Source: a virus
Virus record (IMG/VR): IMGVR_UViG_3300025276_000036
Span: 1-59,527 of that record
Strand: one strand, 5' to 3'
Length of the DNA stretch: 59,527 nucleotides
Shown: in pieces, positions 37,336-40,894 of the stretch
Layout: each line of letters begins with the position of its first letter
How positions within the stretch are numbered: position 1 is the stretch's first letter
The notes under the pieces: generated by a model
Databases searched by the model: none
Seen by the model: the letters and a program-made list of their open reading frames with translations, nothing else
What the model was told of the DNA's origin: nothing
Translations under genes and position numbers: made by a program

Positions 37336-38355
37336 ATGGCCACTATAAGGAAGCGTGGAAAGGCAAGTTGGCAAGCACAAATTCGCCACATCGGATTTCC
37401 CAATCAGTCAAAAACATTCAAAACAAGATTAGCCGCTCAACGATGGATTAATTCGACGACGTCGGATATGGAAGCCGGAGCGTGGAACGATCTTCGTTTA
37501 CAACGATCCATCTTTGTTAGCGACCTTCTTCGTCGTTGGCGAGACTCGCTACACCCAAACACAAAAGTATTCTGCGACAGCAAATTACACACCGTTGAAT
37601 TTCTAGCGCGAGAACTAGAGGGCGTCTCTCTGGCGGCTTTTGATAATGAGTTCATTATGGAGTATGCAAAGCGCAGGTCTGAAACTGTTCGCCGCAGCAC
37701 ACTCGGCACAGAGCTAAGTTATTTGTCCCAGTGCATAGACTTTTGTCGGACTATCTTTAAGACACCCCTGCCCTTTAATCCAGTCCACGAGGTTCGTGGG
37801 GTGTTGGGCCAACTTAATATGGTAGGTGGATCGCGGTGCGTAGAGCGTAGACTGAGAGACGGTGAGTACGAATTATTGCAGGACATAGACATGACGCCTT
37901 GGCTAGGCCCTGTAATGGACATTGCAGTGAACTCTGCGATGAGGCAGGGGGAGATTTTTAGGATGAAGTGGTCGGATTTAGATTTTAAGAAAGGCACTAT
38001 CTTTATCAAGGATCGAAAAGACCCTAAAGAGAAAGAAGGTAATGACCAGATAATACCTATGTTTCCGCCCGTGAGAGAGGCGCTCCTACGTGCACGAGAG
38101 TTTACTGGGGACGATGGTAGGGTTCTTCATGTAACATCAACAAAGAGTATCGGCGATGCTTTTAGACGAGTACGTATTAAGGCAGGGATTTACGATTTAC
38201 GCTTCCATGATTTAAGGCATGAGGGTGTAAGTAGGTTGTTCGAGAAAGGTTGGAGCATCCCCCAAGTGGCCGCTGTATCTGGCCACAAGGATTGGACGCA
38301 ACTTAAACGGTATACGCAACTTAAGCCAGGGGACTTGCTCACTGCGTATGGGTAG
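37336..38355 (+). CDS. int: Tyrosine site-specific integrase
   Basis: Codes for 339 residues. An AP2-like arm-binding N-terminus (IRKRGKASWQAQIRHIG), a SAM-like core-binding domain at about 65-170 and a catalytic domain follow. Catalytic residues are R203 (in MRQGE), H291 and R294 (HDLRH), H317 (GHKDW) and nucleophile Y326 (RYTQL). It inserts the phage into the host at attB. The ribosome binding site AAGGAG is strong. The attP region lies just upstream, and a convergent regulator gene follows. Confidence 0.95.
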   Translation: MATIRKRGKASWQAQIRHIGFPNQSKTFKTRLAAQRWINSTTSDMEAGAWNDLRLQRSIFVSDLLRRWRDSLHPNTKVFCDSKLHTVEFLARELEGVSLAAFDNEFIMEYAKRRSETVRRSTLGTELSYLSQCIDFCRTIFKTPLPFNPVHEVRGVLGQLNMVGGSRCVERRLRDGEYELLQDIDMTPWLGPVMDIAVNSAMRQGEIFRMKWSDLDFKKGTIFIKDRKDPKEKEGNDQIIPMFPPVREALLRAREFTGDDGRVLHVTSTKSIGDAFRRVRIKAGIYDLRFHDLRHEGVSRLFEKGWSIPQVAAVSGHKDWTQLKRYTQLKPGDLLTAYG

Positions 38356-39003: not shown

Positions 39004-39561
39004 TTAACTGACTTGTATGGTGAGCATTGTGTACTGTTCAATAACTTTAAACTTTTCAATTACGCTCTTATTTCCGATAACAAAAGATTTTCTATCTTCT
39101 ACTTTGGCCACATAAAGTAAGCTATTTTTAGAGCATCGGTGGGCGGCACTGGTATCTTTTGTAACTTCTATTAACGCTCCGATTGGTATTCGTAAGTCGT
39201 TTTCTTCATCAACTCTAATGTAAAACGAGTCTAGTTGCGCTTGGTCATATAAGAGCGGGGGGCTTTTGAGTTTTGTTGTAGCGTCACTTGTGGAATACAG
39301 CTCAGCCATACGTATGTTGTCTGGTAGAAGCGCGGCTATGTTAGGGTCGATATCTCTGGGGTCTACTCCAAGGAAGTTAGACAACTTAATGATTGTTTGC
39401 GGCGACATTGCTGTTAAGCCATTGACGTACTGCGCAAATGCTCCTTGAGACCATCCTAATTTACCGGCGGCTTCGGTTTGAGTCACTTCCATCTCTATTT
39501 TTTTAGAGTCCCAAATTCTTCTTAGATTTGCGACCGGGTCATTTGATACGTTACGATTCAT
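39004..39561 (-). CDS. XRE-family repressor with degenerate S24 C-terminus
   Basis: Codes for 185 residues from the ATG at 39561 (site GGTGAG). The HTH spans about residues 26-66 (TQTEAAGKLGWSQGAFAQYVNG). The C-terminal half resembles the CI/LexA S24 fold (FYIRVDEENDLRIPIGALIEV), but where the family has the catalytic Ser (GDSM) this protein has ENDL, so self-cleavage looks lost. It is the best candidate to bind the ATTAGYNNNRCTAAT sites and hold lysogeny. It starts five bases after the nuclease gene ends and is likely co-transcribed with it. Confidence 0.8.
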   Translation of the reverse strand: MNRNVSNDPVANLRRIWDSKKIEMEVTQTEAAGKLGWSQGAFAQYVNGLTAMSPQTIIKLSNFLGVDPRDIDPNIAALLPDNIRMAELYSTSDATTKLKSPPLLYDQAQLDSFYIRVDEENDLRIPIGALIEVTKDTSAAHRCSKNSLLYVAKVEDRKSFVIGNKSVIEKFKVIEQYTMLTIQVS

Positions 39562-39566
39562 AATAC

Positions 39567-39962
39567 TCACCCTTCCATAGTTGAACATATAATAAAATCT
39601 TTAATCAAGCTTCTATTTACTTTATGTTCTATATAATACTCCTTTGTTATATTAGCTGTCCAGTCATTTACTAATAATATTAGGGCTGTATCCTCGATTC
39701 CTACGATAAGTGCAGCTTTTTGTCCGCAGTTATGGAGTTTATTAAGCCATTGTAGTTGGAGTGGTTTTAGCGTGGTTTTAATTAACGTAGAGTCACGTTT
39801 TGGGAGTGCAGGAACGTATTTATACTCTACCCATAGGGTTCCCGCCGGTCCGGCATACATAGCATCAGGGACACCACCCACGTAACTGTCGTGTATTTTC
39901 CATACTAAAAGGTCGGATGGCAGCGTACGGTGTATTGATTTTATAAAACTATGTTCGTTCAT
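39567..39962 (-). CDS. VRR-NUC-like PD-(D/E)XK nuclease
   Basis: Codes for 131 residues. The core is GGVPDAMYAGPAGTLWVEYKYV: PD at 32-33 and E46-x-K48, the catalytic triad of the PD-(D/E)XK fold in its VRR-NUC form. A later KPLQLQWLNKLHNCGQKAALIVG element fits the second half of the fold. Such phage enzymes act as Holliday-junction or flap nucleases. It is unusual to find one directly ahead of the repressor. No ribosome binding site is obvious; a structured leader lies upstream. Confidence 0.75.
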   Translation of the reverse strand: MNEHSFIKSIHRTLPSDLLVWKIHDSYVGGVPDAMYAGPAGTLWVEYKYVPALPKRDSTLIKTTLKPLQLQWLNKLHNCGQKAALIVGIEDTALILLVNDWTANITKEYYIEHKVNRSLIKDFIICSTMEG

Positions 39963-39992
39963 TTAGTCACATTTATTAGTTGGGGTAATAAA

Positions 39993-40144
39993 TCTAGTGA
40001 TGCGTTTCGGCTTACAGTGCATCAAGCTGTAGTTGGCACAGTTATTTTTGTGTTGGAGATACACTCAAAAATAACCTGTAGCCTTTACCGGTTCGCGGTG
40101 GTAATTTAGTGATCCGTTTCCGACTCCTAGTGGATCAAGCTAGG
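39993..40144 (-). ncRNA. Tandem H-type pseudoknot motif (two covarying copies)
   Basis: Copy 1: TACAG (40013) pairs CTGTA (40027) with a nine-base loop TGCATCAAG whose GCATCA pairs TGATGC at 39998. Copy 2: CCTAG (40126) pairs CTAGG (40140) with loop TGGATCAAG whose GGATCA pairs TGATCC at 40110. The stems differ at four base pairs, all compensated, while the TGSATCAAG loop and GTTTCSG linker stay fixed. Between them is a ten-pair perfect hairpin (40041-40050 with 40066-40075). Minus-strand transcription is assumed from the neighbours. No known riboswitch is recognised. Confidence 0.65.
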
Positions 40145-40146
40145 CC

Positions 40147-40178
40147 AAAAAGGGCGCAACGTATCGAGCGTTGCGTCC
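40147..40178 (-). terminator. Intrinsic terminator of the replication operon
   Basis: In the minus-strand sense GGACGCAACG pairs with CGTTGCGCCC (one mismatch) around a seven-base loop, followed by five T. It lies 24 bases after the last replication gene and immediately before the pseudoknot element. Confidence 0.85.
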
Positions 40179-40201
40179 TTAGTCGCGGAGGCAACTTGTT
40201 A

Positions 40202-40894
40202 TTAGCTGTGTTGCTCGTATAGAGCCTCTGCTGATTTGTAGTCGTCTTCCATAGCCCAACCTACCCAAGAAACATCGACATTCATAAACACTTTGCCGCT
40301 TTTGTTCTCAGTGGCAACCCCGCCTACTTTCCAAAGACCTGCGAACCGATCACCGCCGAACATACCGATCTGGGAGTTCCAAGCCTTAGACACGCGTAGC
40401 TTAGACGATGCGAAGTCCATGATGCACGGGCTACGGTCAAGCTCGCCTGTCTCAGGGTTCTTAAGTAACACGATGTGCGCATGGGTCTCGTTGATTTCGT
40501 ACTCAGAAGGCGCGTCTTGAGTATTGACGTACTCTTGTGCACTCTCTTTAGATGTGTACGCACCATGGTAACCACCGCCTGCTTCAAGACTTTTCCACAC
40601 AACATACTCGATCTTGAACGTCAAGCTAAGTGCGTATATCTCTTCGCCATAATTCTCATTAGTAAGTGTGTTAACGAAATGGCCAACTTCACAGCCAGGG
40701 ATGAATTTAGCGTGATGCTTGTCTACTTCGTTAGACATTTTTTGGAGCATCTTTATACGAGGTATGGCTACGTTAGCGCCAACGTTCTCGTTACCACGGC
40801 CAATGCCGTTGACAACTTGTAAGTGGGCCGGTAGCGAGTCGTTAGAGGCTACCATGGAGGGTGCTGCTGATACTGCTTTTGATGCTGAAGGCAT
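40202..40894 (-). CDS. Replication-region protein, possible ssDNA-binding protein
   Basis: Codes for 230 residues. The pattern IPRIKMLQKMSNEVD...GHFVNTLTNENYGEEIYALSL...FKIEYVVWK and the later SSKLRVSKAWNSQIG...DRFAGLWKV is shared by a family of podoviral replication-region proteins; its small size, acidic C-terminus (EDDYKSAEALYEQ) and aromatic beta segments fit an OB-fold ssDNA-binding protein, but I cannot confirm this. The leader TAGGAAATACATTATG is nearly the same as that of the Ubl gene. Confidence 0.55.
   Translation of the reverse strand: MPSASKAVSAAPSMVASNDSLPAHLQVVNGIGRGNENVGANVAIPRIKMLQKMSNEVDKHHAKFIPGCEVGHFVNTLTNENYGEEIYALSLTFKIEYVVWKSLEAGGGYHGAYTSKESAQEYVNTQDAPSEYEINETHAHIVLLKNPETGELDRSPCIMDFASSKLRVSKAWNSQIGMFGGDRFAGLWKVGGVATENKSGKVFMNVDVSWVGWAMEDDYKSAEALYEQHS

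Follow-up and report, generated by a model that had tools for sequence, protein, structure and literature searches.

A family of H-type RNA pseudoknots at gene boundaries of phage genomes, often next to genes for candidate single-stranded DNA-binding proteins

Introduction

The closest described counterpart of the element reported here is the pseudoknot of bacteriophage T4 gene 32. According to the literature on it, gp32 binds a pseudoknot of ∼28 nt, spreads over the unstructured, A+U-rich start region and thereby shuts off its own translation when single-stranded DNA (ssDNA) is scarce (PMC535899, PMC3014915), and a 2010 review considers this possibly the only viral pseudoknot in translational autoregulation (PMC3014915). 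The family described here resembles the gene 32 pseudoknots of T4, RB69 and T2 in being an H-type fold of about 28–36 nt carried by phage mRNA and, in many contexts, adjacent to a gene for a putative ssDNA-binding protein; its 3′ flank tends toward A+U and weak folding, as does the unstructured start region in T4, and at our locus structural modeling gives the upstream product a moderate resemblance to gp32. The likeness seen is one of form and not of sequence, and whereas the T4 pseudoknot precedes gene 32 and overlies the start of that gene, the present one follows the gp34-like or SSB-type gene and precedes another cistron, so that the autogenous position upstream of the start of the SSB gene itself was not found.

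A second counterpart is STAXI (RF01728; Weinberg 2010) of the Enterobacteriales, described as simple pseudoknots with UUCG loops, repeated at least twice and located near genes for single-stranded DNA-binding proteins and integrases (PMC2864571). Simple pseudoknots, a similar neighborhood (SSB and integrase genes) and repeats are also found here, but the present family is usually single-copy, has no tetraloop and has no Rfam match. Neither STAXI nor any other family of Rfam 15 matched in the whole window at the gathering threshold or, judged by E-value, in positions 39950–40210 and in 11 related loci; the Rfam matches obtained were one microRNA-like and one terminator-like, both due to chance, and a tmRNA in one related contig (L244).

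More distant parallels are the repZ pseudoknot, which lies close to the ribosome-binding site and controls translation, and that of rpsO (S15), which is reported to do so near the ribosome-binding site; both differ in their folds and belong to cellular or plasmid genes. The start-associated sequences of cluster K mycobacteriophages are conserved, intergenic, located just upstream of start codons and partly equipped with inverted repeats, but they are many short sites per genome, as opposed to one or two structured RNA elements here. In the accessible parts of the open-licence literature on phage pseudoknots, SSB and structured-RNA motifs we encountered gp32 and STAXI and nothing describing this family, and a description elsewhere is possible because this search was confined to open-licence texts. 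The family is absent from Rfam 15 and apparently unlisted. Neither the region around the two copies in the window nor any of three further contexts of the element matched the DNA of a named phage; Pseudomonas phage CRPAP1904, which has a relative of the nuclease discussed below (31% identity) preceded by a terminator-like hairpin (read by eye), does not have the pseudoknot.

Results

Layout of the locus and fold of the two copies

The window, i.e., the whole stretch of DNA that was analyzed, is a virus record of 59,527 bases; as it encodes an integrase and a repressor of the HTH type, the phage is probably temperate. The genes of its right-hand part run in minus-strand direction, and 239 bases separate the gene of a Pam3 gp34-like protein from that of a nuclease (Table 1). 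Along the minus strand the order is gp34-like gene, terminator-like hairpin, pseudoknot copy 2, hairpin, pseudoknot copy 1, A+T-rich hairpin, nuclease and repressor. The nuclease carries a GGVPD...EYK motif that is invariant in 30 aligned proteins and which we take to be of the PD-(D/E)xK / VRR-NUC type, while Pfam and NCBIfam gave no match for the protein. In one related locus (L048) the nuclease reading frame contains an in-frame stop, and the repressor gene of the window shows a weak similarity to HigA antitoxins that lies below the cut-off (19.2 vs 47.7 bits).

Table 1. Features of the window between and around the two pseudoknots; all lie on the minus strand.
Feature	Position	Strand	Basis or description
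Pseudoknot copy 1	39998..40031	-	Sequence; covariance-model match 49.6 bits, E 1.5e-12 (copy is one of the 53 source sequences of the model)
Copy 1 stem 1, TACAG	40031-40027	-	
Copy 1 loop 1, CT		-	
Copy 1 stem 2, TGATGC	40024-40019	-	
Copy 1 loop 2, A	40018	-	
Copy 1 stem 1′, CTGTA	40017-40013	-	
Copy 1 loop 3, AGCCGAAAC	40012-40004	-	
Copy 1 stem 2′, GCATCA	40003-39998	-	
Pseudoknot copy 2	40110..40144	-	Sequence; covariance-model match 42.9 bits, E 1.3e-10 (copy is one of the 53 source sequences of the model)
Copy 2 stem 1, CCTAG	40144-40140	-	
Copy 2 loop 1, CT		-	
Copy 2 stem 2, TGATCC	40137-40132	-	
Copy 2 loop 2, A	40131	-	
Copy 2 stem 1′, CTAGG	40130-40126	-	
Copy 2 loop 3, AGTCGGAAAC	40125-40116	-	
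Copy 2 stem 2′, GGATCA	40115-40110	-	
Inter-pseudoknot hairpin	40041..40075	-	13-nt arms, 92% complementary, 9 nt between; present in predicted minimum-energy fold
Intrinsic-terminator-like hairpin, then CCCTTTTT	40155..40175	-	Stem of 7 pairs, 5 of them G-C
A+T-rich hairpin, ATTTATTA / TAATAAAT	39971..39993	-	Predicted fold and sequence; between copy 1 and nuclease start
Nuclease, 131 aa, downstream cistron	39567..39962	-	PHROG 2165 and 93; invariant motif
HTH repressor-type gene, overlaps nuclease gene	39004..39588	-	PF01381, 2.5e-7
Pam3 gp34-like protein gene, upstream cistron	40202..40894	-	PF23977, 1.1e-50

Both copies form, on the minus strand, H-type pseudoknots with a stem 1 of five pairs, a loop 1 of 2 nt, a stem 2 of six pairs, a loop 2 consisting of a single A and a loop 3 of 9–10 nt that ends in AAC. 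An earlier, sequence-only reading had proposed two copies 112 bases apart, each with a five-pair stem and a six-pair pseudoknot helix, and the arms and loop that it named are all found in the sequence, the distance from start to start being 112 in plus-strand coordinates and 113 when counted on the minus strand. As it had noted, four pairs vary between the copies with pairing kept, three of them in the stem (T-A/C-G, A-T/C-G and C-G/T-A) and one in the pseudoknot helix (G-C/C-G). The linker that it took to be fixed differs in length, with 9 nt in copy 1 and 10 nt in copy 2, and the strand has to be corrected, the RNA corresponding to the minus strand, which is the coding strand of the neighboring genes. 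Read on the minus strand, a 2-nt loop 1 crosses the six-pair stem, loop 2 has 1 nt and a loop 3 of 9–10 nt crosses the five-pair stem, which is standard H-type geometry. A plus-strand RNA would have to span the six-pair helix with a misplaced loop of no more than 2 nt, and the RNA strand is therefore the minus strand. The outermost pair of stem 1 had been left out of the selection of elements and could therefore be used as a test of strand: among 70 distinct elements, 28 have G-U at this place, 30 a Watson-Crick pair, one A-C and 11 some other combination, and the 28 G-U as against a single A-C argue for a single strand of minus sense.

Pairing rules alone are of little discriminating power in a window of this length; they found two further matches on the minus strand and none on the plus strand, and block shuffles gave about one match per strand under the same rules. 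As such matches arise about once by chance, the evidence against chance is the shared sequence and the existence of homologues.

The hairpin that had been read as a replication terminator does exist, but it resembles an intrinsic terminator on the minus strand and stands just after the gp34-like gene, between this gene and copy 2 and ahead of both copies. Copy 1 ends 35 nt before the nuclease ATG, vs the 8 nt that are usual in the family. With the A+T-rich hairpin folded, the distance between the last helix and the ATG would be 8 nt, and this hairpin may thus restore the usual spacing of ∼8 nt.

Pairing and covariation in related loci

The best 80 of 93 relatives of the nuclease were taken as loci. 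A covariance model for which 53 distinct elements served as source detected the pseudoknot close to the nuclease in 40 of these 80, twice in six of them. As the 53-element set and a later one of 69 elements were picked with pairing in mind, the weight is carried by two scans that were freer of this bias. The first used the anchor CAC[CT]-N8-10-AAC, for which no pairing is required. In the 120 nt that precede the start of the nuclease gene, at least 10 of the 11 pairs were formed in 23 of 26 distinct anchor matches, vs 1 of 281 elsewhere in the same loci. The second scan left stem-1 pairs 1–4 free of any pairing requirement, and in newly fetched viral loci 35 of 37 matches had at least four of the five stem-1 pairs together with all six of stem 2; one of 17 matches did so in a collection of bacterial and archaeal genomes (L208). 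In both selected sets, 8 of the 11 pairs are changed on both sides, and 98.0–98.5% of the cells are paired (98.0% in the 69-element set), as compared to 23–48% in slid controls. The covariation score of the 69 elements was 0.541 vs 0.177 in shuffles.

Altogether we count 108 distinct contexts of the pseudoknot, a number that excludes loci L171–L217 and includes both window copies under one locus (L081); alignment A2 was made without L208 and without one weak copy (L022, 2551). The sequence-only reading had made its case dependent on further homologues with compensated changes, and these were searched for and found, in a family of more than 100 contexts, so that the RNA structure it proposed is held by covariation. 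An H-type RNA pseudoknot is defined by helices that interleave and whose pairs covary within a single strand, as is the case here, and the family is real in its fold, strand, conservation and position at gene boundaries. Its occurrence is nearly exclusive to viral contigs. No element was found in 394 genomes of one order, a weak negative with 17 candidates scored per genome.

The tandem pair, from which the element was first recognized, is not the unit of the family, because most records hold one copy. Partners 65–66 nt apart occur in six loci (L003, L045, L221, L233, L237 and L250), and a tandem scan of a 128 kb control gave no match.

Sequence limits and divergent members

Stem 2 occurs in a limited number of variants (TGATCC, TGATGC, TGACCC, TGGCCC, TAGCCC, TAGTCC and TGGTCC), each with a matching partner, and for TGACCC at least four stem-1 pairs were present in 28 of 29 newly listed matches. 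Relaxing the other conserved positions yields next to nothing: at most one (L276) of 24 matches with a loop 2 other than A had four stem-1 pairs and a full stem 2, and none of three matches with A-U at stem-2 pair 5 had four stem-1 pairs. Loop 1 is variable (CT, CC, AT, AC, GC and others). Since stem 2, loop 2 and stem-2 pair 5 are limited in sequence, what is kept is a specific fold or partner and not merely two stems.

A divergent subfamily (L282, L285, L295, L307, L244 and L164) has a loop 3 of CAACA[GT] or similar and often a mismatch at stem-1 pair 2. Its member in L307 lies just after a gene that reads by eye as a major capsid protein. The viral contig L244, with a variant pseudoknot of mismatched stem 1, also has tmRNA matches (RF04321 and RF01850) at 2511–2770 on the minus strand, and it may represent DNA of the host or the end of a provirus.

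Genes on either side of the pseudoknot

The pseudoknot is intercistronic, and the preceding gene has the same direction in 79 of 90 contexts, 18 of the 108 having been dropped for their closeness to contig ends. Some of the neighbor assignments are noisy, as gene calls follow simple ORF rules. With this limit, the gene just before the element in the 108 contexts is gp34-like in 39, encodes a small membrane-type protein in 15, a helicase-like protein in 4 (from reading the sequence), an acidic-tip SSB-like protein in 5 and a DUF669 protein in 3, with others in the rest; in those of the small membrane-type contexts that were read, an SSB gene precedes the small gene. Downstream follow the nuclease, a protein of 87 or 103 aa, an integrase, a head protease (phrog_80), a ThiS-like protein or promoter-like sequence. 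The tie to the nuclease-repressor operon suggested by the window therefore does not extend to the family, in which the element is also found after SSB genes, before integrase or capsid-protease genes and elsewhere.

In front of the nuclease, the end of the pseudoknot lies 5–10 nt from the ATG in 37 contexts and exactly 8 nt in 20, and no Shine-Dalgarno sequence was seen in the nuclease start region; several contexts have the pseudoknot just before a ribosome-binding site. In two loci (L144, L164) it occupies a 3′ UTR position ahead of a terminator-like hairpin. One locus (L036) has a copy after the gp34 gene, an inserted gene block and a second copy before the nuclease, and in another (L222) the copy after gp34 is kept with the nuclease on the opposite strand. 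When mapped on a tree built from 61 gp34 proteins, its occurrence requires six changes, at least three of them forced by well-supported branches; the pseudoknot comes and goes among gp34 relatives. Start codons of the nuclease are TTG in three element-less loci (L012, L014, L016), two of which (L012, L016) lie inside an element-rich clade, and these are too few cases for a change of start codon after element loss to be upheld.

In the contexts listed, no U run follows the pseudoknot as it would an intrinsic terminator. A strictly defined terminator-like hairpin just upstream was found in 6 of 81 contexts (2.05 expected), and a terminator of this kind as a general feature of the family was rejected on this count. 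The first 10 nt of the 3′ flank contain 68% A+T vs 54% overall, while start regions of long ORFs also reach 63%; the 3′ flank is less folded than random sequence (p 0.025) and the 5′ flank more folded (p 0.007). Where the element follows an SSB gene and a small gene, a promoter-like sequence comes after the pseudoknot, which therefore need not be part of the downstream leader in this class.

A near-identical promoter-like leader is found ∼280–330 nt after the pseudoknot in 11 loci (L084, L090, L099, L108, L117, L126, L089, L109, L112, L121, L125), and the gene behind it differs in almost every relative, which reads as a fixed promoter in front of a slot with hypervariable gene content. In L240 (12885–13100 and 13529 onwards, minus-strand orientation), and also in L239 and L243, a small ThiS/MoaD-like protein (PF02597, E 7.1e-4, below the cut-off) follows the pseudoknot and is itself followed by a protein that reads like the ThiF/E1 type, possibly a phage ubiquitin-like pair.

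Link to ssDNA-binding proteins

In 21 of the 108 contexts, the element is preceded on its own strand, at a distance of up to 2.6 kb, by an ORF with an SSB-type acidic tip, against a background of 0.037 per 2.6 kb that includes the 21 cases themselves. One such protein is an SSB of PF00436 (1.1e-19) and phrog_44 (2e-35), and PHROG gave no match for three others (contexts of the L151, L227 and L300/L288 types). The genes of the L134 type encode a DUF669 protein (phrog_378), and in phage HK620 a DUF669 protein is reported as a proven SSB (PMC5928155).

An AF2 model of the gp34-like protein (pLDDT 81.6) aligned with the cores of RB69 and T4 gp32 in VIA-align at Z 6.4 and 6.1 (6.4, 6.1, 5.3 and 5.1 over 137–145 residues), values below 8 that, according to the warning of the tool, can reflect a common arrangement. 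Because Foldseek found nothing for this model at E ≤ 0.001, the likeness is a lead and not a proof, and the gp34-like protein of the window is possibly a ssDNA-binding protein of gp32 type. The best structural row of the model was a chain of a phiC31 integrase-RDF fusion (9teh, Z 8.5), which raises the thought that the gp34-like protein might also act as directionality factor for the integrase of the window (37336–38355).

The association has its limits. No ssDNA-binding gene is in view in the head-protease contexts, the ThiS-like context and the context read as major capsid, and in L106 a Gp2.5-like gene lies ∼1.7 kb downstream of the pseudoknot. Beside most relatives of the L283-type acidic-tip gene there is no pseudoknot, and SSB as an obligatory partner was rejected for this reason. 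The model of the L283-type protein (pLDDT 41.6) was too poor for use, so that its assignment as SSB depends on the acidic tip. In L351, L357, L358, L369, L380 and L382, which have no pseudoknot, another conserved structured stretch lies just 3′ of the L283-type gene, a G+C-rich hairpin followed by AGGAG...GGGGAA...CCC; on sequence grounds this suggests that the 3′ flank of the gene is a hotspot of RNA structure.

Discussion

The interpretation we favor, at a probability of about 0.4, is that of a cis-acting pseudoknot at cistron boundaries that makes the expression of the neighboring genes unequal, with the ssDNA-binding protein of the phage as its likeliest regulator. The pseudoknot would fold independently and act in cis on both sides. 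Downstream, a last helix ∼8 nt before the nuclease AUG, as in most relatives, would keep the start mostly closed, as the ribosome would need open RNA there. Upstream, hairpin and pseudoknot together would shield the 3′ end of the message for the ssDNA-binding protein, which would be useful since this product is needed in large amounts. When free ssDNA runs out, the ssDNA-binding protein would land on the pseudoknot and spread over the start site, as gp32 of T4 does; it is the likeliest regulator because putative proteins of this kind, from several families, are the commonest upstream products and because the RNA 3′ of the element tends to be rich in A+U and weakly folded.

Not all observations fit equally well. 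In the window the mechanism is weakened by the 35 nt between copy 1 and the ATG and by the terminator-like hairpin ahead of both copies. The step that involves the SSB is weakened by the conserved core (stem 2, the A of loop 2 and the AAC of loop 3), which is common to contexts of unrelated SSB families, as a family-specific protein contact would not predict such sharing; a fold that acts passively, or a host factor of common occurrence, fits this better. In a bolder version, which we consider doubtful, phage SSBs that belong to several unrelated families (gp32-like gp34, PF00436 SSB, DUF669 SSB and the acidic-tip proteins) would all be controlled through one and the same conserved pseudoknot, with free SSB feeding back on the neighboring replication and recombination cistrons. 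If true, the case of T4 gene 32 would be a common principle and no longer an exception, and the RNA module would move between unrelated phages independently of the protein that is sensed.

Of the functions suggested by the sequence-only reading, a protein-binding leader and a nuclease-resistant RNA are both possible. The latter corresponds to a passive boundary, a serious though somewhat unlikely alternative, in which a stable fold blocks 3′-to-5′ exonucleases and/or entry of the 30S subunit with no specific ligand, and the conserved core is a requirement of the fold itself. It suits all contexts, including the 3′ UTR positions before terminator-like hairpins (L144, L164) and those before promoters, and it explains a single RNA core beside unrelated proteins as well as the strict A of loop 2 and G-C/C-G at stem-2 pair 5, where relaxed matches look real in at most 1 of 24 and in 0 of 3, respectively. 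However, a plain hairpin would usually suffice for this, the sequence of stem 2 is more strongly conserved than a barrier seems to need, and the distance of 8 nt from the nuclease AUG hints at a role at the start site.

Alternatively, the element might be a translational operator for a common RNA-binding protein of host or phage other than SSB, such as a ribosomal protein, an RNase or a regulator. One core with many unrelated neighbors would point to one partner, and S15 and gp32 are precedents of pseudoknot operators, but no candidate partner gene was found and we regard this as unlikely. Other small pseudoknot riboswitches resemble the element in size and topology, and its position just before ribosome-binding sites in several contexts would suit a compact riboswitch for a small molecule, as had also been suggested from the sequence. 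This is improbable, given that loop 1 is variable, both helices are complete with no evident ligand pocket, no metabolic gene theme emerges and Rfam has no match; there is no positive sign of a ligand.

It is slightly more improbable still that the conserved entity is a single-stranded DNA element, i.e., a site of replication or recombination, and not RNA. Its frequent vicinity to replication and recombination genes would speak for this, as argued for STAXI (PMC2864571), and so would the direct repeats of the element that flank the inserted gene block in L036. Yet the 28 G-U vs one A-C at the outer pair fix one strand, in 79 of 90 contexts the element points in the direction in which the upstream gene is transcribed, and the spacing to the start codon is nearly fixed. 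An RNA antitoxin or decoy akin to type III toxin-antitoxin systems, the antitoxins of which are pseudoknot repeats, is highly improbable: unit length, occasional tandems and a location upstream of a nuclease gene are similar, but the copies are usually single or else 65–113 nt apart and not contiguous, the nuclease has a PD-(D/E)xK motif, many contexts have no nuclease and Rfam gave no match to ToxI and its kin. Chance or an alignment artefact, which the structure-only scans of the window with their approximately one match per strand might suggest, can practically be dismissed in view of the homologues, the unbiased pairing tests and the near-exclusive occurrence on viral contigs.

Few conserved structured RNAs are known from dsDNA phages, and here a family supported by covariation is found in more than 100 phage contexts. 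The RNA is short and easily made, and together with the candidate proteins it lends itself to direct binding and reporter tests. Its link to putative ssDNA-binding proteins, as read from sequence, is striking, and the family may be a common means by which phages balance the expression of neighboring genes.
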